A stretch of DNA of 48,519 nucleotides from Acidobacteriota bacterium (GTDB lineage: Bacteria; Acidobacteriota; Blastocatellia; Chloracidobacteriales; Chloracidobacteriaceae), in the NCBI GenBank assembly GCA_016208495.1, contig JACQXX010000099.1, forward strand, positions 1 through 48,519, given 5' to 3'. The translations under genes were made by a program, and so were the position numbers. Below are positions 3,529 to 46,932 of the stretch, one piece after another. The notes below the pieces were generated by a model. That model worked only from the letters and a program-made list of their open reading frames with translations, had not been told where the DNA came from and searched no databases. Position 1 is the stretch's first letter, and each line of letters starts with the position of its first letter.

Positions 3529-3632
3529 ATACCAGTCAGTAGTCAGTAGTCAGTAGTCAGTAGTTCACTAAGCTCTGTTGATTGAATTACTTGACTGTTT
3601 CCTCATACAAGGGGTCCATTGCACAATAGTAT
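3529..3632 (+). repeat. 104-bp dispersed element, heptamer-tailed type (copy 1)
   Basis: It starts ATACCAGTCAG and ends near ATAGTAT, and is exactly 104 bp. The left third is a tandem of a 7-bp unit (AGTCAGT) followed by a conserved AT-rich middle with TTGATTGAATTACTTGACTG. The copy at 37017-37120 has the same length, ends and middle. It lies between the phosphoesterase gene and the divergent secreted-protein gene. Confidence 0.8.
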
Positions 3633-19216: not shown

Positions 19217-19320
19217 ATACCATTTTGGAATGATCCTATCGTATTAATAAGAGGTTAAGTTGTTGATAGAATTGTATTTTCCTTAGCCCTTAGCCCGATA
19301 CCCTCAGCCCTAAATGGTAT
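19217..19320 (+). repeat. 104-bp dispersed element, TTAGCCC type (intact reference copy)
   Basis: Begins ATACCATTTTGGAATGATCC and ends TAAATGGTAT, exactly 104 bp. The right third is a degenerate 7-bp tandem (CCTTAGC, CCTTAGC, CCGATAC, CCTCAGC). Its middle GTATTAATAAGAGGTTAAG is the undisturbed form of the two insertion points in the copy at 27696-28140. It sits 55 bp past the end of the NtrC-type gene. Confidence 0.88.
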
Positions 19321-25674: not shown

Positions 25675-27393
25675 ATGAATTTAGTTGTAAACACCAATCC
25701 ATTTCTCTGTGCGATGCGCAGATCCTTTTCAATTCTCATTCTCTGTTTTCTGATCCTGTTGATGGCTGGCGCGCCGCTCTCGTGCCAGGCGGCCAGCGGG
25801 CAAGACATTCGATCAAGTATTCGATACTCAGGACCTGACATCCGTTCCGGCACGGTGTTGAAACTCCGAATGGACAATACCCTCAGTTCAGCCACGGCTC
25901 AGACCGGCGAGACCTTTACCATGACGGTTATGGAACCCGTGATCGTGAATGGCCAGACCGCCATTGCGCAAGGCACCAGAACCCAGGGCCATGTCACCAA
26001 TGTGGAACCCGCCCGGCGCAACGAAACGGGCACAATCTCGGTTGAGTTTGATCGGCTGGTGTTTGCCAATGGCCAGTCGCTTCCCATTGATGGGCTGCTG
26101 ACAAGTACGGATCCGGATGTAAAAAATCAAATTGACGAAGAAGGCCGCACCACAGGCAGTTCCACCACGAAACGAAATATTATTTTCGTTGGTGGCGGTG
26201 CCGGTGTCGGTGCCATCATTGGTGCCCTGGCCGGAGGCGGTAAAGGGGCGGCGATTGGCGCCGGGGTTGGTGCCGGGGCTGGTATCCTGGGCGCCTTGTT
26301 CAGCAAAGGCTATGAAGCTCAGGTGAAAGCCGGAGATACCTTTAATTATGAATTAACCCGCAGCCTGCGGATGTCGGATGTTGATTCCGGCTACAATTCA
26401 GCCAATACCGGCAACCACAATTCAGGTGGTGGCTATGGACAAACCCAGCAAGAATACACTGATTTAGAATTTATCAAGCTGGCTCAGGTCCAATTGCGGG
26501 ATCGCAATTATTATGGTTCAGCCATTGATGGACGCTTCACCGCCAGCACTCGCTCGGCGATCAAGAATTTTCAACGTGACAAACGCCTTGAACAAACGTC
26601 GCGACTTGATCTGCAAACCGCCCAGGCATTAGGTTTGGTGGACAATAACGGAAATATCACTGGAAATAATACTGGAAATGATAATGACCGAAACAGTCGT
26701 CTGGTGCGCGTGGTGGAAGCCAAAGCCTACCGCCAGTCAGACCGCAGTATTCGTGTTGCTATGCTGACCGAGGTCAATTCCGGTGGCTGGAATATCTTTG
26801 GGGATTATGAAATCAAAAACGGCCAGATGGAAGTCTGGGCGCGTGGTACACCACCCACTGGCTATGCCTCCCAGGGGAACAGTCGAAAGAACCTGGATGT
26901 GATTAGCCGTGAAGATGTATCGCGGATCCGAACGGTTGTGGTCCATAGCGACAATCGCGATTGGACCATCGCCGTCGGTTCTTCCAACCAACCTGGCAAC
27001 GGGTCGGGAATGAGCCTGGCGTCGTCACTCAAACTGCAGGCTGATCGGATGCTGGCCACCGTCAGATCACAATTTCGAACCAATGGCCGAACCAGCCGGT
27101 CATCAATCTGGCAATTGAATGAAAATGAGGCCACTCTGTACTCATCACTGGCCGCCCTGGCTGCATCTACCCAATTCTATGCCGAACTGGTTGACGCCCG
27201 AAGTTCTGATGAGGCCCAACGCGGGGCCGCCGAAGTGATCATCCGCAATGCACGTCGCGTCAGCCGGATGATGCAACGTGGCGGACGTTCAACCGATAGG
27301 ATCCAACGTGACTTTGATGCCTATGACTCTGGCATAAAACAATTGACCGACCAGTACCAGTTCACTACTGAAAATGAAGAAGCCTGGAAATAA
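25675..27393 (+). CDS. Exported glycine-zipper protein with peptidoglycan-binding domain
   Basis: 572 residues. A signal sequence with a longish N-region (hydrophobic core about 17-33, cleavage near CQAASG) is followed by a beta-rich domain (about 55-150: GTVLKLRMDNTLSSATAQTGETF...). Next come a glycine-zipper membrane-type stretch (GGGAGVGAIIGALAGGGKGAAIGAGVGAGAG pattern, about 170-205), a PG_binding_1 domain (about 265-315: VQLRDRNYYGSAIDGRFTASTRSAIKNFQRDK), an Asn-rich linker, an uncharacterised beta region and a helical C-terminal ~130 residues. GAGG 7 nt before the ATG fits. It probably links outer membrane and cell wall; that is inference from the domain mix. No operon partner is evident. 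Confidence 0.85.
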   Translation: MNLVVNTNPFLCAMRRSFSILILCFLILLMAGAPLSCQAASGQDIRSSIRYSGPDIRSGTVLKLRMDNTLSSATAQTGETFTMTVMEPVIVNGQTAIAQGTRTQGHVTNVEPARRNETGTISVEFDRLVFANGQSLPIDGLLTSTDPDVKNQIDEEGRTTGSSTTKRNIIFVGGGAGVGAIIGALAGGGKGAAIGAGVGAGAGILGALFSKGYEAQVKAGDTFNYELTRSLRMSDVDSGYNSANTGNHNSGGGYGQTQQEYTDLEFIKLAQVQLRDRNYYGSAIDGRFTASTRSAIKNFQRDKRLEQTSRLDLQTAQALGLVDNNGNITGNNTGNDNDRNSRLVRVVEAKAYRQSDRSIRVAMLTEVNSGGWNIFGDYEIKNGQMEVWARGTPPTGYASQGNSRKNLDVISREDVSRIRTVVVHSDNRDWTIAVGSSNQPGNGSGMSLASSLKLQADRMLATVRSQFRTNGRTSRSSIWQLNENEATLYSSLAALAASTQFYAELVDARSSDEAQRGAAEVIIRNARRVSRMMQRGGRSTDRIQRDFDAYDSGIKQLTDQYQFTTENEEAWK

Positions 27394-27426
27394 GAACAGG
27401 TTGGAGTCAATAGCCAGCAGTCAATA

Positions 27427-27569
27427 ATGCCAGTTAAGAGTTAAAAAAATAAGCGGATTTGAACCCGCGAAGCGGGTGGCAGGCTCGTAGCCCAGGGTGC
27501 AACCCTGGGCTACGAGCCGGCGCCCTTCGTGGGCTGAGAACCAAAACGGCTTTAACTCTTAACTGGCAT
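27427..27569. mobile_element. 143-bp MITE, family B, copy 1
   Basis: Perfect 19-bp inverted ends (27427-27445 and 27551-27569; ATGCCAGTTAAGAGTTAAA), flanked by the direct repeat CAATA on both sides (27422-27426, 27570-27574). The core holds the hairpin CGTAGCCCAGGG-TGCAA-CCCTGGGCTACG. Another ATGCCAGTTAAGAGTT start follows directly at 27575, apparently a solo end. Confidence 0.88.
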
Positions 27570-27620
27570 CAATAATGCCAGTTAAGAGTTCGTTAAGCTC
27601 ATTTGATTGAATTACTTGAC

Positions 27621-27693
27621 CCAGAAAAAATGCGAGAAAGCCCCATCCTCAACCGCGAAGTGGTAGGGCGGGGCTTTCTCGCATTTTTTCTGG
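27621..27693. repeat. Perfect 24-bp inverted repeat
   Basis: 27621-27644 is the exact reverse complement of 27670-27693, with a 25-nt loop. The stem includes AATGCGAGAAAGCCCC. It ends 2 bp before the next element. Either a strong terminator-like hairpin in this 716-bp gap or a mobile palindromic unit. Confidence 0.85.
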
Positions 27694-27728
27694 TAATACC
27701 ATTTTGGAATGATCCTGTTGTATTAATA

Positions 27729-27859
27729 ATGCCAGTTAAGGGTTGAAAAAATTGTTCGTTGAAAACAAAGGGCTTATCAAAATCTCAGATTTCAGACGTT
27801 CAATCTGCTGTCTGTAAGTTGTTGATTTTGAAGTCTCAATTTCAACTCTTAATTCGCAT
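27729..27859. mobile_element. 131-bp MITE, family B, copy 2
   Basis: Inverted ends ATGCCAGTTAAGGGTTGAAA and (reverse complement of the right end) ATGCGAATTAAGAGTTGAAA match at 17 of 20. Flanked by TAATA at 27724-27728 and 27860-27864. The interior is unrelated to the hairpin core of copy 1 and does not code. Confidence 0.85.
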
Positions 27860-27873
27860 TAATAAGAGGTTAA

Positions 27874-28074
27874 TACTACAGCGAGGTTTTAATAAAAAAC
27901 CGAGTTTTGAGCCCAGGAACTGGGCGGCAGGCACGCTAGCCCAGGGTGCAACCCTGGGACCAACGGCCCGGCCTCCCTCCCGCCCCACCGGCAACCCAGG
28001 GTTTCGAAGACTCCACCCTGGGCTACGAGCCTGCCACCCGCTTCGCAGGTTAAAACCGAAACCTCGCTGTAGTA
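27874..28074. mobile_element. 201-bp MITE, family C
   Basis: Perfect 16-bp inverted ends (TACTACAGCGAGGTTT), flanked by TTAA at 27870-27873 and 28075-28078. The interior carries GCCCAGGGTGCAACCCTGGG and, near its right end, a long match to the core of the family-B element at 27427 in inverted orientation. Confidence 0.88.
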
Positions 28075-28109
28075 TTAAGTTATTGATAGGATTGTATTTC
28101 CCTTAGCCC

Positions 28110-31100
28110 TTAGCCCGATACCCTCAGCCCTAAATGGTATAAGATCGTTACTTCTACCGTGTGCTCCTTCCGATCATCTATTAAAAGAAGCGCCTGGCCT
28201 TCCTGGGCCTGTCCGTCAACGGTCATGCCTGGTTTTTCAAGGGTTGGATCCGAAATTCGCCGGATGGTGATGTGATAAACCGTTTCCCGAAAGCGGTAGT
28301 GAATCGTATAGCCGTCCCAATTTGCCGGCAGGCAGGGGGTCAGAGAGAGTGTATCCACTTCCAGATTGAGACCCAAAAGTGATTCTAAAATGAGCCGGTA
28401 CATCCATCCGGCTGAACCCGTGTACCACGTCCACCCGCCGCGTCCAACGTGTGGCGGACGGGCATACACGTCGGCGGCAATGACATAGGGCTCGACCTTA
28501 TAAACTGTCATTGCTTCAGGCGACCTGCCGTGGTTGATCGGGTTGATGATGGAGAACAATTCCCAGGCTCGCTCGCCCTCACCCAGCTCAGCAAAGGCCA
28601 TCGCTGCCCAAATCGCGGCGTGAGTATACTGGCCGCCGTTTTCACGGACGCCGGGAACATAGCCTTTAATATATCCAGGGTTAAGGTCAGATATGTCAAA
28701 TGGAGGGTCAAGTAATTGAATCAGCCTCTGTTCCCGCCGCACCAGCCGCTGATTCAGTGCCTCCATTCCTTGACGGGAGTGTGCCCTGTCACCGGCGCCC
28801 GAGAGCACCGACCAGCTCTGGGCAATGGAATCAATCTGACATTCAGCATTGGTGGCAGAACCCAACGGTGTGCCGTCATCAAAGTAAGCCCGGCGATACC
28901 ACCCGCCATCCCAGCCGTGCTGTTCCAGGTTTTCGCGTAATCGAGCCGCTGTCTGATCACAGTGACTGGCAAAGGATATGTCCTGATGGCCCCGCGCCAC
29001 CACCGCAAACCGGACGAGCACCTGATAGAGAAAAAACCCCAGCCAGACACTTTCGCCGGTGCCATGCTCGCCCACGAGGTTCATCCCGTCATTCCAATCG
29101 CCGGAACCAATGAACGGCAGGCCATGGTCGCCGAATTTCAGCCCTCGTTCGATGGCAAGCCGGCAATGTTCATACAGCGTGGCAAGGCGTTCCGACTGAT
29201 TGGGGAGATTGTAATACGACTCTTCTTCCGGATTTAATTCCCGACCTTCGACAAAGGCGACCGGTTCATCCAGAACGCCGGTGTCTCCCGTGCTGGTCAC
29301 ATAGCGATGTGTGGCCAGGGGCAGCCAGAGGTAATCATCCGAACATTTGGTTCGCACACCGCGCCCCATTGGCGGATGCCACCAATGCTGGACGTCGCCT
29401 TCCGGAAATTGCCGCGAGGCACAGACCAGCAGGTGGGCTCTGACCGCCTGCGGATCAATATGGATCAGTGCCATGACATCCTGTAACTGGTCGCGGAAGC
29501 CAAACGCCCCGCCGGATTGATAATACCCGCTCCGAGCCCACATCCGACAGGCCAGGGTTTGATATAGGAGCCAGCCGTTGGTCAAAACATTGAGTGATTG
29601 ATCGGGTGTTTCCACATGAACGGCGCCCAGGGTGTGTTTCCAGTAGTCCCAAACTTGTTCCAGCGCGAGGCGGGCCGCTTTCGGTCCCCGGAACTGTCGG
29701 GCGAGTTGGGTTGCTTGAGCCGCGTCGGTTCCAACCCCGAGCAGAAACACGATTTCGCGTGTCTCTCCACCCGCCAGATCAAATGCCATCTGCAGCGCGG
29801 TACATGGGTCCAGGGCAGCGCCGAGTTTGCCCGACAATCGCGACCGCTTCAGAGCGGCTGGATTCTGGAGTGTCTGATTGCGTCCGATGAACTCAGTCCG
29901 GCTCCCGGTAAAGGTCCGGGTCGGGTCATCCACATCAAAAAATGCCACTCGACCTGGAAACTCGGTGTTGTAGGTATTTCGCGCCAGAATGGCACCACTG
30001 AGCGGATCCAGTTCAGTGCTCAGATGCATGGCGGTTTTTGGCGGCAGGTCTCCCAGTACCCACTCGACATACCCCGTGACCGAAAGGCGGCGCATCCGGC
30101 CAGAATCGTTGCGGAGTTTCAGGACGATGAATTTGACAGGTTCCTTGAGCGCCACATAGGTCCACAGTTCGGAACTGATGCCGTGCTCGGTATGCTCAAA
30201 AACACTGTAGCCAAATCCATGACGGCAGGCATAGGGTGTGCCTCCGCGAACAGGTAGCGGCGTCGGCGACCAGTAATAGCCAGTGTCTTCTTCGCGAATG
30301 AAGAAGGCTTCGCCGCTGGAGTCGCTCACCGGGTCGTTGTGCCACGGGGTGAGCCGGTACTCGTGGGCGTTTTCGCTCCACGTATAAGCGGCACCGCTTT
30401 CAGAAATGACACTGCCGAAACCTGGATTGGCCAGCACATTGACCCACGGCACCGGCGTTGATTGGCCGTGCGCCGTGGTGATGACGTATTCTCGACCGTC
30501 GCGGGTAAAGCCACCCAGTCCATTGAAGAAAATCAGATCGTCACGGGGTGACCCTCCAACCGGGATTTCGATTCGGCGGTTTCGAACCGGGATCAGAAGC
30601 GGAATCTCAGGTTCAATCGGCCCCCGGAGTTTGAGCTGATCCGCAAGTGTTCCCAGTCGGTCAGATAAAATCACGCGGGCGACCGAATGAACCAGGATTC
30701 GGTCTTCGGCTGAAACCTGGTCAATGGGCCGGACAAAGATTCCACCCGGTCGTTCCATTGACCCTGATTCGATGGTGGCCGGGATCAACTGCATAATTTG
30801 ATCGTGTAACAATTGCTGATAGCCGGTTCGGTCTTCGTTCCAAATCACCAGATCCACCGCCAGCCCCTTGTGCCGCCAGTAGGAATGAGCCTGAATCAAC
30901 CGCCGAACCAGGTCAATATTGGACGGGTCCCCGATTTTCAACAACACAATCGGCAGGTCGCCGGAAATCGAATATCCCCACAGCCCGGACTGTCCACGTC
31001 GGTTCTGGATCAAAAGACTGGCTTCGGCTCGCAACGTGGCATTGGCATAGAGGATTGATCTGGCCAAATCACAGTACAAATGAGCGTCGGCTTCGGTGGC

Positions 31101-34100
31101 ATTCAGGTGGCGCAACGTCACGTGGCTATGGGTCCAGGCCAGGTCAAAAACCCGGCCTGCAATCCGCCAATCCTGATATTTTTCGACCAGTCCCAGGCAC
31201 AAATCGCGGGTTTCGCCAATCCCCGTCACAATATTGACCGTGGCCGATGTTTCTGGTTCCAGGATGATTTGATACCGGATGGCCACAATCGGGTCGAGGA
31301 CCGAGCCTTCGCTACCCGAAAGAGGGCCGGTTTCACTCATCGCCAGGGGATTGACCAGTGTATTGCCGCGACCAATAAAGCGCGCCCGGTCCGTTTCATA
31401 GGAAACTTTGTTGATTTCAGCATTATGAACGGTCATCAAATGAAACATGCAGACCGTCAATTCGTGCTCGGAACGGGGTCGCCGGGCACAGACAATCGCC
31501 TGTCGCTGGGAAAGAATCTCCGTCTGAACAAACAACTTGCTAAACGCAGGATGCAGGGCATCGGCAGCGGACGAGGTCAGCACGACTTCGGCAAAACTGG
31601 TAATTTCGAGGACAACCCGTGTCCGTCCGGTATTTGTAATGCGGACGCGCCGTAATTCGATATCGTCTTCAGGTGAAACCGCGACCTCGGTATGGGTGTC
31701 AATCCCCGCGTTGCGGTTGCGGAACTCGCCACGGCCTTCTGAAAAAATTGCTTCGTAGTGCTCGGTTTGTTTGAGTGTTGGTTGATAGGAAGTGGACCAG
31801 TATTCCCCGCTGGTCACATTGCGCAGGTAACAAAACGTGCCCCAGTTATCGCGGGTCGTGTCCTCTCGCCAGCGGGTAATGGACAGGTCTTTCCATCGGC
31901 TGTATCCGCCTCCAGAGTTGGTGAGCATGACGTGATAGCGGCCATTGGAAAGCAACTGGACTTCGGGCACCCTGGAATTTGGGTTTTTGTAAATGCGCAA
32001 TGGCCGGTCTGAATTCTTCGGACCGGTATGAACCTCGGTGGTTTCTTCGGGCGGTGAATAAAACTCGGTGGTTTTTGGGACCCGTTCCTGCAGCAACAGC
32101 ATGGTTGCCTTAAACAGCGGCTCGGCCTCAAAGCGTTTTTGCATCGGACGGTTCAGCAGCACATAGGCCATTGACAGAAAACTCATGCCCTGATGATGCG
32201 CCATAAATGACCGCACAATGGCAGTGGATTGTCCGGGAGGAACTCGGGTCAAGGTATAATCAACGGCTTCATACAGGCCGTACTCACCTTCGACCCCTTC
32301 AGCGGTCAACCGCTGCAGGTTCCGGCAGGCTTCCTGTGGCGCGACCATCAGTGCCAGCGCCGAGGCATACGGAGCAATCACCAGATCCTCAGCCAGACCG
32401 CGCTTGAATCCGAGCCCTGGCACGCCAAACGCCCGATACTGGTAATTCAGATGGAGGTCAACGATGTTGTAGCCTGATTCCGAGACGCCCCAGGCGACAC
32501 CGTTCTTGCGGCCATATTCGATTTGCGTCTTGACCGAGGCCCGGTACGTCTGGTCGAGCAGCGTGTCGTCAAAGGTCGGCATAACCAGCAACGGCATCAG
32601 ATATTCAAACATTGAGCCGCTCCAGGAAAGCAAGGTCGGCCCACCGTCGGCGGTTGTCAGCAATCGCCCCAGGGCAAACCAGTGTTCCTGTGGCAATCGT
32701 CCCTGGGCAATGCCCACAAAACTGCTCAATCGTGCTTCGGAGGCCAGCAAATCATAGTAACTGGAATCCAGTCGCCGTTCGCCGACATTGTAGCCGGTTG
32801 CCAGGAGCTTTCGCGTCGGGTCAAACAGAAAGTCATATTCCATTTGAGCCAGGTCCCCACTGCGCCCGGCAAGCTCGTCCAGCTCTTTTAACCGTTCGGC
32901 AGCCCGCAAACGCGAGTGGCTGACCAGCCGTCGCAATTCGTTTCCAACAAGCTGGTCTTTTGAGGAAGGAATGGTCAGGGTTGCCAGTTGCCGGAGCGTG
33001 AGAATGTCATTCATTCCAACCTGAACAGCATCCGGATGGATGATCCAGGGGGCCAGAAACTGCAATTCATCAAGCGCTTCGCGGCAGTGCTGGGTCAACA
33101 CACTTGCCCAGTGGACCTTTTCTTTTCCAGAGGAAGGCGTCAGGGTTTGAATCATTTCCTCGCCGACCTTGAGCAGCCCTTCCAGTCCTCGCCGGACTTC
33201 CCCAAGCGTGGTGCGTGGTGAGGAGCAAGCCGCCCCAATGCGGGCGTGCAACCTGAGAAGTTGCGTCGAAGTTGAATCATTGAGGGCATCGGTCAGAATC
33301 TCAAGTGTGTCACTGATGCCTTCAAACAACCGGGGTCCGACAATCGGGCGATCAGGCAAATCCAAAAGAGCCGTTCGCAAAATCAACAAATGTCCGGCCA
33401 GGTTGCCGCTGTCAACCGATGAGACATAGAGCGGCGGGAGCGGCACCAACGTTTGGGTGTCATACCAGTTATAGAAATGCCCCCGGTGACGTTCCAGCCG
33501 ATCCATCGTGTTCAACGTGTTCGTCGTTCGGTTTATCAGTTGGGTGGTGGTGATGTATCCGAAATCGTGAGCGGTGACATTGGCCAGCAAGGCCAGACCG
33601 ATATTGGTCGGCGACGTCCGGTGGGCAATGACTGGATTTGGATGTTCCTGAAAATTGTCGGGTGGCAGCCAGTGGTCATCCTGGCCGACAAACTGCTCAA
33701 AGAACCCCCAGGTTTTGCGGGCCAGCTTGCGCAAGAACACCGATTGCTCGACGGTTAATGTGGCTTCGTGCCGGGCGATGGGCTGGCTGATCCACCAGGC
33801 AAGCGCCGGTGCCACAAGCCACAGGACGAGCAGCGGTGCCGCCACAATCAGTGCCTCCGGTCTGAAAAAGGCCAGCCACACAGCCGCCATCAGGGCAATA
33901 GCAGGGGCGCTCCACATCAGGCGGTATAACCCGATGAGGTCGGTTGGGGCCTGACGCTCGGCGTCAATTGACGGATTCCATTCCAACAGGTGTTTGTGCG
34001 AAATCAGCACCCGCCAGAGGGTCCGAACAACGGCATCAAGGCTGAAGACAGCCTCAAACGGAAGCATCGCCAACCCAAATACAGCTTGCGAAAGATTGCG

Positions 34101-36803
34101 AACGGTTGTGTGCATCACCAGGGACAGGTGCGGCCTGAGCCTCCGATCCGCCGGTTTTTGAAACAGGTCCGGAAGTGCAACCAGGACTGGCGGAATCAAC
34201 AGGATTCCGACAACGGCACAGGTCCAAACCCACACGGGTGATAAAAACGCCCAAACAAACAACAACAGCATCATCAACGTGGCGGGGGTCAGGCTTCGCC
34301 GCAGGTTATCAAAAATCTTCCAGCGAGACAGCAATGACAGCGGATTCCAGGCCCGGCCTCCGCCAGAAATCGAAACCCGTGGCAGCAACCATTCGGCAAT
34401 CTGCCAGTCGCCCCGGATCCAGCGATGGCGGCGGCTGACATCGGCACTGTAAGAAGCCGGGAATTCTTCGTGCAACTCGACTTCACTGAGTAACCCTGAG
34501 CGGGCATAACACCCTTCCAAAAGGTCGTGGCTGAGAATGCGGTTTTCGGGGAAGCGATCTTTGAGTGCGGTTTCAAATGCCGCGACGTCATAAATTCCTT
34601 TTCCAATGAACGAACCTTCGCCAAACACATCCTGATAGACGTCAGATACCGTGTGGGTGTACGGGTCAATGCCGGTTTCCCCGCCAAAAAGTTTGGCGTA
34701 CCGGGACCGGTTCAGGCCCGACATGCTCACTGTGACATGGGGCTGCAAAATGCCATATCCAAGGTTGACACAGTTGGTTTTGGCCTGATGTCTGGCCTGG
34801 TTGAGCGGGTGCGCCATTGCCCCGACAAACTGCCTGGCCGAATTTCGTGGCAGGTGGGTATCTGTGTCGAGCGTGATCACATATTGAATGCCTGATAACC
34901 TCGTGCGGTCGCCAACGACAACCGCAAAGCGGTCTTCTGAGCCATCCAGAAGCAGCGCATTGAGCTCCGCCAGTTTGCCTCGCTTGCGTTCATATCCCAT
35001 CCACGTTCCCTGAGGAAGGTTCCATCGGCGTGGGCGGTGAAAGAGAAAAAACGGGCCGCTGCGATCTTCATCATTGTCACAATATTGTTTGTTTAAGGCT
35101 TCGATTCCCTGCTGGGCCTGTGCAATCAGGGCAGCGTCTTGCGAAGGTATTACTTCCTGGGCGGAATCCCGAAAATCTGTCAGCAAGGCAAAGCGGAGAT
35201 TTGGATCTCGATTGGCCAGAAACCGGACTTCCAGAGCTTCCAGCAACCGCTCAACCCCCTGAACGCTGGTGAGCATCGTCGGAACCACAACCAGCGTCCG
35301 GCAGTCGGGCGGAATTCCTTTTGAAAAATCCAGGCGTGGCAGCGAATGGGGTTTGACCGTCAGGGTGGCAAACCAGTTCATCAGCGCCACGGCCAGGTGC
35401 AGCGTGCTCACCAGGGCAAATCCCCCAGTCACCGCCAGTTGCCAGCCTGGAATCCCAATGCTCCGGGCAGCCGTGATCCACAGAAAGGTCAATGTAGCCA
35501 TCAACACCAGAATTGGGCCAAGGTAAAAGGTCAATGGAAACTGACACCCTGCCCGTTGGAGAACCTCAGCCACTGGAAGTCGCCGTTTCAGGCGTTGCTC
35601 AAGTTTCTGCAACCCGGGGCCAACCAGAAAGAACCCGATATGGGCAGCGCGGTCGGTATCTCCGTGTTGACTGGCGCTGGCTTGTGAGAGTTGAACCACC
35701 TGCCGGGCTGTCTCGGTTTCGGTATGTGGGCTGTGCTTCGCAATTTGCTCAACCACGTGGCGATAGGCATCGCGGGTTGAAAAATCCATCCGGGAATAGA
35801 CTTCAGCCGGATCAGTCCGCAAAATTTGTTCGACAATACTCATCGCCTCGACAAATTCGCGCCAATCCATGCCTCCTAAAAACCGAAGACTGCCAATGCT
35901 GTTGCCAATCGAAACCTGATCTGCCGCCTGTTGCTGGTTTTCAGATTGCACCAGATGTTCAATCGTCTGACCAGTTTCGGCCAGACGCTGTTCGATCCAG
36001 GTGATCGGTAACTTTAAAGTTGGGCTTCGACCCTGTACCCGCCGCACAAATTCAGCCACAAACGAACTGACCAGGAGCGGATTTGACCGTGCCATGTCTG
36101 CCACCACCAAAATGAGACCTTTCGGGTCTTTTTCGGCGGTTTCCATCATCAAATCGGCCCACCGGGCGGCCCGGTTTCGAGTGCTCCAATCAGAGGTAAT
36201 GCGGGATCCAACTCGACGGAGATTTTCGATCAATGCCAGTCGGAGCATAATTGGGATGGCCCATAACTCCCCCAATGTCAGCGGGGTGATAGCCTGATAG
36301 GCCGTGACAAAGTGTCTCAGGCTTTCCGGATCAACCCGGCCATCGCCATGAGCAATGGCCTCAAGCACGACGTCATACACACGCGGCAATCCAGCGGAAG
36401 GGCCGGTGAGCAGGCGCGGCAATTCCCGGCTATATCCTTTGGGGAGATGCCGTTTGGCGGTGCGGATTTGTTCTTCAATCAGGTAAAAGTTATCGAAGAT
36501 CCATTCCCCGGCAGGTGGAATGCGACGTTTGGCTTGAACGGCTTCCATCAAACGGGCGTGAACATCCATCAGGATGTCTTCATTTTCGGCCAGCCGGTTC
36601 AGCAACCGATCTGGGCCCGGAGCTGGATTGATGCGGTGCGATTTCGCCAAATGGTTGGCGTGCAGCTCCATCTGTTCCCGGCTGAACAATTCCGCACGCA
36701 CCGGCACCTCAGAGCGCTCGGCTTTGGTCTCCACTTCAGTTCGGTAAACATACCTGGTCAAACGGAGCCGAAGTCGGTCAAATGCCGTTGGGCGTACCTT
36801 CAC
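28110..36803 (-). CDS. ndvB: Cyclic beta-1,2-glucan synthase (GT84 plus GH94)
   Basis: 2,897 residues, about the length of known NdvB/ChvB proteins. These membrane enzymes start, extend, trim and cyclise beta-1,2-glucan from UDP-glucose. An N-terminal helical region (about 1-420) precedes membrane helices (about 430-475) and a GT84 transferase segment (TLVVVPTMLTSVQGVERLLE; LDTDTHLPRN near 650). Further membrane helices lie at about 835-1010, then the glucoamylase-like region (SESGYNIVDLHLNYQYRAFG near 1,455) and the GH94 phosphorylase-like end (GSGDWNDGMNLVGEHG near 2,570, with the catalytic Asp; WYTGSAGWMYRLILESLLG). The start is GTG, with AAAGGAGAG 6-7 nt upstream. Its last ~10 residues (ILYHLGLRVSG region) and stop codon come from a 104-bp repeat that overlaps the 3' end. 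The product should be a periplasmic glucan for osmotic adaptation or host contact. Confidence 0.95.
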   Translation of the reverse strand: MKVRPTAFDRLRLRLTRYVYRTEVETKAERSEVPVRAELFSREQMELHANHLAKSHRINPAPGPDRLLNRLAENEDILMDVHARLMEAVQAKRRIPPAGEWIFDNFYLIEEQIRTAKRHLPKGYSRELPRLLTGPSAGLPRVYDVVLEAIAHGDGRVDPESLRHFVTAYQAITPLTLGELWAIPIMLRLALIENLRRVGSRITSDWSTRNRAARWADLMMETAEKDPKGLILVVADMARSNPLLVSSFVAEFVRRVQGRSPTLKLPITWIEQRLAETGQTIEHLVQSENQQQAADQVSIGNSIGSLRFLGGMDWREFVEAMSIVEQILRTDPAEVYSRMDFSTRDAYRHVVEQIAKHSPHTETETARQVVQLSQASASQHGDTDRAAHIGFFLVGPGLQKLEQRLKRRLPVAEVLQRAGCQFPLTFYLGPILVLMATLTFLWITAARSIGIPGWQLAVTGGFALVSTLHLAVALMNWFATLTVKPHSLPRLDFSKGIPPDCRTLVVVPTMLTSVQGVERLLEALEVRFLANRDPNLRFALLTDFRDSAQEVIPSQDAALIAQAQQGIEALNKQYCDNDEDRSGPFFLFHRPRRWNLPQGTWMGYERKRGKLAELNALLLDGSEDRFAVVVGDRTRLSGIQYVITLDTDTHLPRNSARQFVGAMAHPLNQARHQAKTNCVNLGYGILQPHVTVSMSGLNRSRYAKLFGGETGIDPYTHTVSDVYQDVFGEGSFIGKGIYDVAAFETALKDRFPENRILSHDLLEGCYARSGLLSEVELHEEFPASYSADVSRRHRWIRGDWQIAEWLLPRVSISGGGRAWNPLSLLSRWKIFDNLRRSLTPATLMMLLLFVWAFLSPVWVWTCAVVGILLIPPVLVALPDLFQKPADRRLRPHLSLVMHTTVRNLSQAVFGLAMLPFEAVFSLDAVVRTLWRVLISHKHLLEWNPSIDAERQAPTDLIGLYRLMWSAPAIALMAAVWLAFFRPEALIVAAPLLVLWLVAPALAWWISQPIARHEATLTVEQSVFLRKLARKTWGFFEQFVGQDDHWLPPDNFQEHPNPVIAHRTSPTNIGLALLANVTAHDFGYITTTQLINRTTNTLNTMDRLERHRGHFYNWYDTQTLVPLPPLYVSSVDSGNLAGHLLILRTALLDLPDRPIVGPRLFEGISDTLEILTDALNDSTSTQLLRLHARIGAACSSPRTTLGEVRRGLEGLLKVGEEMIQTLTPSSGKEKVHWASVLTQHCREALDELQFLAPWIIHPDAVQVGMNDILTLRQLATLTIPSSKDQLVGNELRRLVSHSRLRAAERLKELDELAGRSGDLAQMEYDFLFDPTRKLLATGYNVGERRLDSSYYDLLASEARLSSFVGIAQGRLPQEHWFALGRLLTTADGGPTLLSWSGSMFEYLMPLLVMPTFDDTLLDQTYRASVKTQIEYGRKNGVAWGVSESGYNIVDLHLNYQYRAFGVPGLGFKRGLAEDLVIAPYASALALMVAPQEACRNLQRLTAEGVEGEYGLYEAVDYTLTRVPPGQSTAIVRSFMAHHQGMSFLSMAYVLLNRPMQKRFEAEPLFKATMLLLQERVPKTTEFYSPPEETTEVHTGPKNSDRPLRIYKNPNSRVPEVQLLSNGRYHVMLTNSGGGYSRWKDLSITRWREDTTRDNWGTFCYLRNVTSGEYWSTSYQPTLKQTEHYEAIFSEGRGEFRNRNAGIDTHTEVAVSPEDDIELRRVRITNTGRTRVVLEITSFAEVVLTSSAADALHPAFSKLFVQTEILSQRQAIVCARRPRSEHELTVCMFHLMTVHNAEINKVSYETDRARFIGRGNTLVNPLAMSETGPLSGSEGSVLDPIVAIRYQIILEPETSATVNIVTGIGETRDLCLGLVEKYQDWRIAGRVFDLAWTHSHVTLRHLNATEADAHLYCDLARSILYANATLRAEASLLIQNRRGQSGLWGYSISGDLPIVLLKIGDPSNIDLVRRLIQAHSYWRHKGLAVDLVIWNEDRTGYQQLLHDQIMQLIPATIESGSMERPGGIFVRPIDQVSAEDRILVHSVARVILSDRLGTLADQLKLRGPIEPEIPLLIPVRNRRIEIPVGGSPRDDLIFFNGLGGFTRDGREYVITTAHGQSTPVPWVNVLANPGFGSVISESGAAYTWSENAHEYRLTPWHNDPVSDSSGEAFFIREEDTGYYWSPTPLPVRGGTPYACRHGFGYSVFEHTEHGISSELWTYVALKEPVKFIVLKLRNDSGRMRRLSVTGYVEWVLGDLPPKTAMHLSTELDPLSGAILARNTYNTEFPGRVAFFDVDDPTRTFTGSRTEFIGRNQTLQNPAALKRSRLSGKLGAALDPCTALQMAFDLAGGETREIVFLLGVGTDAAQATQLARQFRGPKAARLALEQVWDYWKHTLGAVHVETPDQSLNVLTNGWLLYQTLACRMWARSGYYQSGGAFGFRDQLQDVMALIHIDPQAVRAHLLVCASRQFPEGDVQHWWHPPMGRGVRTKCSDDYLWLPLATHRYVTSTGDTGVLDEPVAFVEGRELNPEEESYYNLPNQSERLATLYEHCRLAIERGLKFGDHGLPFIGSGDWNDGMNLVGEHGTGESVWLGFFLYQVLVRFAVVARGHQDISFASHCDQTAARLRENLEQHGWDGGWYRRAYFDDGTPLGSATNAECQIDSIAQSWSVLSGAGDRAHSRQGMEALNQRLVRREQRLIQLLDPPFDISDLNPGYIKGYVPGVRENGGQYTHAAIWAAMAFAELGEGERAWELFSIINPINHGRSPEAMTVYKVEPYVIAADVYARPPHVGRGGWTWYTGSAGWMYRLILESLLGLNLEVDTLSLTPCLPANWDGYTIHYRFRETVYHITIRRISDPTLEKPGMTVDGQAQEGQALLLIDDRKEHTVEVTILYHLGLRVSG

Positions 36804-37462
36804 AAAAACTCTCCTTTGGTCAATCAGGTCCGGGTCCTGGTTCCCAAACGGCCTGATCCACCCAAACCATCTGGTGACGAGGCTTCAACGCTGGTCATGA
36901 CATATTTCATCCACACGAGTTCAATCGTGTTCTGTCCCAGACCTGAAACGGATTTCATCTATATTGAGCAATCGTCGTGCCGTACCTGGAAGGAAGGAGA
37001 ATCTGGAGTGTATGTAATACCAGTCAGTAGTCAGTAGTCAGTAGTCAGTAGTTCACTAAGTTTATTTGATTGAATTACTTGGCTGTTCTCTCATACGATC
37101 ATTCCATTGCAAAATGGTATAATCGAATCTCAATGAGGAATCTGGCAATAGTCAATCCTGTAAAATAAACTGGAACTCAGGCGTGTGTGCAACTCATACA
37201 GCGGGAGGAGGTCAACCAGCCCGAGTGTACTGTTTCGGTACACTGTGGACACCACAAGGCGAGAGCTTTTCAGAACAAGGTTCAGCGGATCGTCTTGAAA
37301 CGAAAAGTGAATACTCGTATCCGAGTCACATTTTTTACTGCCTTCGGCCCATTTATTTGAGCTTCAACCGTCAAACAGAGAATAGCTGTCCCTCAAACAG
37401 TCATTCTCTGTTTGGAAATGAAGATAGACCACAAACTCTGGAACCGGAATCCCCACGCTTCA
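36804..37462. other. 659-bp gap between the glucan-synthase and sortase genes
   Basis: Holds the 104-bp repeat at 37017-37120 and a small inverted repeat GTGTAC-TGTTTCG-GTACAC at 37225-37243. A 102-codon open frame at 37183-37491 has no ribosome-binding site, looks low-complexity and overlaps the sortase gene, so I do not call it. Nothing else seen. Confidence 0.5.
37017..37120 (+). repeat. 104-bp dispersed element, AGTCAGT-tailed type (copy 2)
   Basis: Starts ATACCAGTCAG, holds five AGTCAGT-type heptamers, and ends GCAAAATGGTAT. Same length and middle as 3529-3632. Read in reverse it begins ATACCATTTTGCAATGGAATG, close to the start of the TTAGCCC type, so both types are one family with different 7-bp tails. 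Confidence 0.85.
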
Positions 37463-39219: not shown

Positions 39220-39293
39220 TACCAGTCTGCAGTCAGTCATCCGCCGTCAGTCGTTCACTCAGTTTATTTGATTGAACTATTTGACTATTTTCT
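39220..39293 (+). repeat. Degenerate copy of the AGTCAGT-tailed 104-bp element
   Basis: CTACCAGTCTGCAGTCAGTC... then GTTCACTCAGTTTATTTGATTGAACTATTTGACTATTTT, clearly related to the middle of 3529 and 37017. Its right end is lost inside the small membrane-protein gene; it supplies that gene's last codons and stop. Confidence 0.7.
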
Positions 39294-39531
39294 GCTTCAC
39301 TGCTTCCCCCTGGGATTGCCTGGTCCCAAACAACAGCAAAAAAACACCACTCACCAGCACCAGTCCTCCGAGTATGGGTGAAAGCGCCACCCGTTTCTGG
39401 GTTTCCCGAGTGGCATGAATTGGTCCAACATCCAGTATTTTTTCTTGACGGGTATAGCTAAACCCTTGAAAGACAAGGAACAGAACACCCGCCAGCACCA
39501 GTACCATTCCGAGTACAGCCGTTGATTTCAT
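39277..39531 (-). CDS. Small two-helix membrane protein (DUF3185-like)
   Basis: 84 residues with two hydrophobic helices (about 5-23 and 52-70) joined by a loop with SYTRQEKILDVGPIHATRETQKRVALSPILGG. The 'Q-E-K-[IV]-[LV]-D-[VL]-G-P' loop followed by a proline-isoleucine-glycine start to helix 2 recalls DUF3185-type proteins; function unknown. GAGGA close to the ATG supports the start. The last residues (QKIVK) and the TAG stop lie in a degenerate repeat copy. Confidence 0.75.
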   Translation of the reverse strand: MKSTAVLGMVLVLAGVLFLVFQGFSYTRQEKILDVGPIHATRETQKRVALSPILGGLVLVSGVFLLLFGTRQSQGEAVKQKIVK

Positions 39532-42865: not shown

Positions 42866-42966
42866 ATACCAGTTTGTAATCAGTAGCCAGCAGTCAGTAG
42901 CTTGCTAAGTTTATTTAAATGAATAACTTGACTGTTTTTCTAATCCGATTGCTTCATTCCAATATT
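42866..42966 (+). repeat. Degenerate copy of the AGTCAGT-tailed 104-bp element
   Basis: Starts ATACCAGTTTGTAATCAGTAG, keeps CTAAGTTTATTTAAATGAATAACTTGACTG, and has a decayed right end near 42966. Lies in the 469-bp gap 42807-43275, where I see no gene. Confidence 0.7.
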
Positions 42967-46828: not shown

Positions 46829-46932
46829 ATACCATTTTGGAATGAAGTCCTCTTATTCCAGCGAGGCTAAACTATTGAAAAAATTGTATTTCCCTTAGCC
46901 CTTAGCCCGATACCCTCAGCCCAAAATGGTAT
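46829..46932 (+). repeat. 104-bp dispersed element, TTAGCCC type (copy 3)
   Basis: Starts ATACCATTTTGGAATGAAGTC and ends CAAAATGGTAT, exactly 104 bp, with the CCTTAGC heptamer tail. 25 bp past the stop of the gene at 46958. Confidence 0.85.

Follow-up and report, generated by a model that had tools for sequence, protein, structure and literature searches.

Two gene-less miniature elements inserted side by side in a third in an Acidobacteriota genome

A composite of three elements between convergent genes

The window analyzed here is a stretch of 48,519 nucleotides from an Acidobacteriota genome (contig JACQXX010000099.1 of assembly GCA_016208495.1). Between two convergent reading frames it carries a composite of 443 bp, which consists of a host element, F104a, and two guests, F131 and F201. 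The host (27697-28139, forward strand) has the ends TACCATTT...AAATGGTA, measures 102 bp without its guests and is interrupted twice. It is flanked by a TNA target duplication, TAA, at 27694-27696 and 28140-28142. Guest F131 (131 bp, 27729-27859, forward strand) has the ends ATGCCAGTTAAGGGTTGAAA / ATGCGAATTAAGAGTTGAAA, which match at 17 of 20 positions, and lies between two copies of a 5-bp duplication, TAATA (27724-27728 and 27860-27864). Guest F201 (201 bp, 27874-28074, forward strand) has a perfect 16-bp terminal inverted repeat, TACTACAGCGAGGTTT, and is bordered by a 4-bp duplication, TTAA (27870-27873 and 28075-28078).

The original prediction had placed the composite at 27696-28140, and direct reading confirmed the length of that interval (445 bp), both guest lengths and the arithmetic of their subtraction. 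The proposed guest ends and the TAATA and TTAA duplications were likewise upheld, by the sequence itself and by other copies in the genome. Removal of both guests together with one TAATA and one TTAA leaves a host of 102 bp, or 104 bp if an A and a T from the flanking TAA are included. The predicted host length of 104 bp thus counts one duplication base on each side; the element really runs from TACC to GGTA over 102 bp, and its target duplication is 3 bp long and of the type TNA.

Uninterrupted copies at other places in the same genome served as stand-ins for the empty site. The restored host is identical at 97/102 positions to an uninterrupted copy of the same subfamily in the window (forward strand, flanks TTA/TAC, an imperfect duplication), so that the predicted match to an intact copy holds, with that copy spanning 19218-19319 and not 19217-19320. 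It agrees at 96/102 positions with a same-subfamily copy on contig C103 (L002), the right end of which is cut, and at 83/102 positions, ungapped, with a second uninterrupted F104a copy in the window (46830-46931, forward strand, flanks TAA/TAA). In the copies at 19218 and on C103, and in the left part of a copy on contig C93 (L011), the target region reads TATTAATAAGAGGTTAAGTT, with a single TAATA and a single TTAA at the second target; another TTAA lies inside TATTAATA. Both duplications are therefore absent where the guests are absent.

The two guests sit side by side in the host, with 14 bp, TAATAAGAGGTTAA (27860-27873), between them. Three nested layers had been proposed; we found two, one host with two independent guests, and the host is older than both. 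The claim that the relative age of all three families is fixed holds for the host against its guests. It does not hold for the order of F131 and F201, because these are adjacent and not nested in each other. Nor does the identity to the nearest copy order them (98.5% for F131, L032 on C116; 94.5% for F201, L350 on C101), since the families may differ in their copy history.

We are confident that the earliest event was insertion of F104a at a TNA site and that F131, an IS982-type miniature element, and F201 then entered this host independently. In the proposed sequence of events, the 102-bp F104a would have entered at a TNA site, the 131-bp F131 would have entered F104a at TAATA, and the 201-bp F201 would independently have entered at TTAA a few bases from F131, with a staggered cut and repair at each insertion giving rise to the 5-bp and 4-bp duplications. 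One might instead suppose that the composite is an older compound unit, mobile as a whole, in which the inner ends are coincidental; with the outer ends undamaged and the outer TAA duplication complete, the entire 443 bp could in principle still be a transposition substrate. However, no second copy of the composite was seen: a 445-bp query matched at full length only itself (11 of 427 candidates in this genome scored), and its remaining matches each cover one family, except for a different composite on contig C80. As uninterrupted relatives exist and the inner duplications obey the rule of each guest family, we consider a compound unit highly improbable.

The composite also touches a neighbouring gene. 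A 2897-aa frame (28110-36803) reaches into the right end of the host and the adjoining TAA with its final ten codons and its stop codon (28110-28142). When a 396-residue query from this frame was compared with other genomes of the class, the matching part in six of them ran from residue 3 to 384-388 and thus ended about ten residues early. Because the homologous part stops there, the host element seems to supply the C-terminal end of the protein. The gene was present in 6 of 38 other genomes, in these only at 51-53% identity, and no genome of the same genus was among those compared. A scan of named genomes with the 2897-aa frame kept 80 loci from many phyla at 59-70% identity and gave no near relative. 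Homologues in other phyla are thus closer than those in the own class (59-70% over the 80 kept loci versus 51-53% with the shorter query), which may reflect horizontal transfer. Also between the convergent frames, at 27621-27693, lies a hairpin with a 24-bp stem (-32.8 kcal/mol, z -9.7) that probably represents a terminator or a further small repeat.

Three families with their own duplication rules

The genome that carries the window (G000) comprises 8.38 Mb in 177 contigs. End-pattern searches with at most one mismatch gave 208 sites for F104, 163 for F131 and 41 for F201, and reversed-pattern controls gave 1, 3 and 5. Profile models identified 35 full-length copies of F104a, 35 of its sister subfamily F104b, 15 of F131 and 10 of F201. 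The sequence searched, 1.48 Mb of the own genome, was made up of overlapping loci in which the elements are overrepresented; the models were trained on copies whose flanks differ at 0-1 positions. The prediction of three mini-element families is thereby borne out, with further copies of each in the genome. F104b carries AGTCAGT heptads at one end and is represented in the window, always on the forward strand, by copies at 3530-3631 and, again with heptads, at 37018-37119, by a partial copy at 39220-39295 (model positions 1-76 of 102) and by a nearly complete one at 42867-42962 (1-95 of 102).

A search for copies with different ends, which would have spoken against the proposed families, showed none, and length variants of the guests keep identical ends. 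Among the listed end pairs, which were restricted to those with at most one difference between the flanks (none above 600 bp), F201 ranges from 135 to 253 bp and F131 from 130 to 582 bp, the longest being interrupted or overlapping. Early genome searches for element copies scored 40 candidates out of 266, 133 and 155.

Target preferences had been said to follow from the one site. They required the other genomic copies, and from these the rules were obtained. Duplication statistics were computed without a flank-similarity filter and compared with 200 rounds of randomly re-paired flanks. An exact 3-bp duplication borders 22/35 F104a copies (re-paired mean 7.1, maximum 13) and 24/35 F104b copies (mean 8.7, maximum 15); 45 of these 46 duplications among 70 copies are TNA (TTA, TAA, TGA, TCA) and one is TAC. 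For F131, 9/15 copies have an exact 5-bp duplication (mean 1.9, maximum 6), which reads YANTR with TATAG as the one exception. For F201, 9/10 copies have an exact 4-bp duplication (mean 3.0, maximum 6), eight of them YTAR and one ATAG. Among lengths of 2 to 8 other than that of the family, no clear excess was seen (at most two copies). No exact duplication was present in 24/70 F104, 6/15 F131 and 1/10 F201 copies. Since one length per family recurs above the level of re-paired flanks, the duplications are not due to chance.

These figures also bear on the notion that the repeats are structured intergenic repeats, such as terminators or REP/ERIC-like palindromes, which spread in another way and owe their apparent duplications to target preference. 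Preference alone does yield matches, as the re-paired means show, the stack sits between convergent genes, and, as single strands, three copies of the elements form more stable folds than shuffled sequences (z -3.1, -3.8 and -2.3). But true flanks match far above re-paired ones at a single length per family, uninterrupted host copies lack the guest duplications, and no Rfam family reached its gathering score in 27300-28300. We therefore hold such an origin to be very unlikely. Even less credible is an assembly artefact from collapsed repeats or a chimaeric contig: the assembly is a draft of 177 contigs with many short repeats, but chimaeric joins would not produce family-specific exact duplications together with a restored 102-bp host.

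F104, F131 and F201 are gene-less miniature inverted-repeat elements (MITEs). They are short, their terminal inverted repeats comprise 11 bp in F104a (copy at 46830), 17/20 positions in F131 and 16/16 in F201, their duplications have a fixed length, and their copies are many and dispersed. Lengths of 102, 131 and 201 bp leave no space for a transposase gene, and a 115-aa frame that spans both guests (27759-28106) was taken as chance. None of the three was matched to a named family in the present analysis.

In the parts of the literature consulted, prokaryotic MITEs are likewise short and gene-less, with inverted repeats, target duplications and many copies (PMC10969869, PMC3852290), and nested elements are described 'as Russian dolls' (PMC3852290). 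Compared with the MITEs in those parts (PMC10969869, PMC3852290), the present composite stacks three families with different duplication rules in 445 bp. The arrangement is real and tidy and of an already known, ordinary kind, nested miniature elements being known in principle. A literature search for MITEs in Acidobacteria returned an acidobacterial paper that merely cites a plant paper. The value of the composite lies in the fact that three miniature families and their cutting rules can be fixed from sequence alone, that relatives hold a candidate enzyme for mobilising one of them, and that the stacked copies date host and guests relative to each other.

Candidate mobilising enzymes

Among other genomes of the class, miniature elements that are 69-73% like F131 and have the same ends occur in G014 (one) and G025 (ten long matches); by eye, 4/6 of these copies have an exact 5-bp duplication. 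In G011, which belongs to the same order, the F131 end lies close to the ends of contigs and follows a reading frame. A search with the 42 C-terminal residues of this frame was positive in 25 of the 162 genomes of the class, among them the same-family G001. Longer open frames among these IS982-like matches encode 293-326 aa, and several genes of the IS982-like elements are broken. Two of the proteins were compared with profiles, and both match DDE_Tnp_1_3 (Pfam) and IS982 (NCBIfam); against the IS982 cut-off of 130 bits, the G014 protein scored above (141.8) and the G001 protein below (116.9).

Thirty rows sorted by eye yielded 17 IS982-like elements of 933-988 bp in which both ends match the F131 type. 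Their duplications are exact at 5 bp in four cases, at 6 bp in one and at 4 bp in two; eight have no exact duplication, and in two the left flank is lacking. In G014, one miniature-element end and one insertion sequence (IS) end are identical over 20 bases; in G025, the corresponding ends agree over 19 bases, the IS there being incomplete. These ends, common to F131 and IS982-like elements in related genomes, support F131 as a putative IS982-type miniature element. F131 resembles the IS982-like elements of related genomes in its ends of about 20 bp and its 5-bp duplications. It differs in being gene-less, and the 42-aa C-terminal query gave no match to an IS982-like transposase in the genome that carries F131. 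The ends of about 20 bp would be recognized by an IS982-like transposase, which probably mobilized F131 in trans. We found no paper that joins IS982, MITEs and target site duplication.

For F104 and F201 the duplications point to the kind of enzyme. TNA duplication is the rule of the IS1031 group of the IS5 family, and YTAR duplication that of the IS5 group sensu stricto and of the IS701 family. F104 is like the IS1031 group in its 3-bp TNA duplications, but no transposase with F104 ends was found, and this placement is a candidate only. The same holds for F201, which is like IS5 sensu stricto and IS701 in its 4-bp YTAR-type duplications, but for which no transposase with F201 ends was found. 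The duplications thus point to possible IS5-like enzymes for F104 and IS5- or IS701-like enzymes for F201. A literature search joining YTAR, IS701 and IS5 found no paper.

Several searches looked for such partners. In the own genome, a PF01609 search gave seven weak or strong matches, two of them over the cut-off, and none was bounded by the ends of the three families. One of these loci, L304, appeared to have F104-like ends and was rejected: the match is spurious and falls within a 505-aa frame that is unrelated. End pairs 600-3000 bp apart, sought in the first 180 loci with about 1.5 kb on each side, revealed none that resembled a single element; F104 end pairs of 1424 and 1431 bp were dismissed, as their ends join separate copies. 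No transposase was recognized by eye beside 12 F201 ends. Outside the own genome, F201 ends gave 7 matches in 161 genomes of the class versus 10 for the reversed pattern, and F104 ends gave 16 versus 8, with no genome showing more than a single match. Across the class (162 genomes), the two kinds of end are essentially restricted to the own genome. Separately, an IS with GGGTAAACGCATCTTAA ends (by eye) and a PF01609 transposase is present at L299 (contig C122 of G000); it lacks the ends of the three families.

Other stacks and heptanucleotide arrays

Further insertions into F104 copies are present in the genome. Thirty-nine guest end-pairs, some overlapping, had been preselected for flanks with no more than one difference, and in four of them the joined flanks form one continuous F104 match. 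These are the F201 of the composite itself, a 143-bp element at 27427-27569 (forward strand) and the F131 copies L038 (C156) and L039 (C109), both inserted in F104b. The 143-bp element has F131 ends, a different interior and a CAATA duplication and sits in an F104b remnant; together they form a second stack at 27397-27620 that continues with an extra ATGCCAGTTAAG, which may be the remainder of another insertion. On contig C80, a 251-bp F201 lies inside an F104-type copy and is bordered left and right by TTAG (by eye); its flanks each match F104 models, yet not as one match under the criterion used.

F104a copies are also interrupted by other families, in L028 (440 bp) and L011 (387 bp). Inspection of these loci by eye (L028 1146-1585, L011 1183-1569) suggested further small families with TA-flanked CAGCAATTCTTTGTTTG ends, TACAAGTC...GACTTGTA ends and TACCTTGTCAT...AAGGTA ends. 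F201 and the 143-bp F131-type element have a common palindromic core (CCCAGGGTTGCAACCCTGGG type) despite their different ends, located at 27440-27519 and 27891-28058 and in L097, L098 and L120. The segment 27491-27535 weakly matches Acido-Lenti-1, below threshold (22.2 of 37 bits).

The genome is also rich in heptanucleotide arrays. In 848,519 bp (40 stretches, L394-L433, and the window), taken from contigs already known to carry an element match, we counted 152 exact period-7 arrays of at least three copies; two order-3 Markov controls gave none, and other periods from 4 to 12 gave at most 23 each. The main units are AACCCTG (42), ACTACTG (21) and AACCACT (18). With an array-like flank defined as 28 nt with 16 of 21 lag-7 matches, 10/15 F131 copies have such a flank (e.g. 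L035, L037, L040, L041, L043), as do 49 of 5000 random positions, 2/35 F104a, 1/34 F104b and 1/10 F201 copies. F131 adjoins heptad arrays unexpectedly often, a target preference that allows a test of the origin of 7-bp satellites and of their possible role as harmless insertion sites.

In F104b the heptads lie within one end, and the 35 copies of this subfamily include lengths of 102 bp (29 copies), 109 bp (2) and 95 bp (2). A general derivation of the arrays from F104 was rejected, as only 25/152 overlap an F104 match. Twenty of the 21 ACTACTG arrays do so. In 11 cases the match is long; the remaining overlaps are partly circular because the F104 model contains that heptad. For all other units the figure is 5/131. 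Heptad satellites might offer an IS982-type miniature element places to land while F104b carries heptads at its end and spreads them, such that elements would both seed and colonize satellites, an idea that we put forward as speculative and rather unlikely. In the part of the source consulted, arrays of 7-bp direct repeats like those of the own genome are described from cyanobacteria and Beggiatoaceae, and such heptamer repeats, it is suggested, could conceivably mark transposon excisions (PMC4679880). Compared with the arrays in that part (PMC4679880), the own genome has many different units, and F131 often lies in or beside them. Several of the heptad arrays are edged by TTCGAA.
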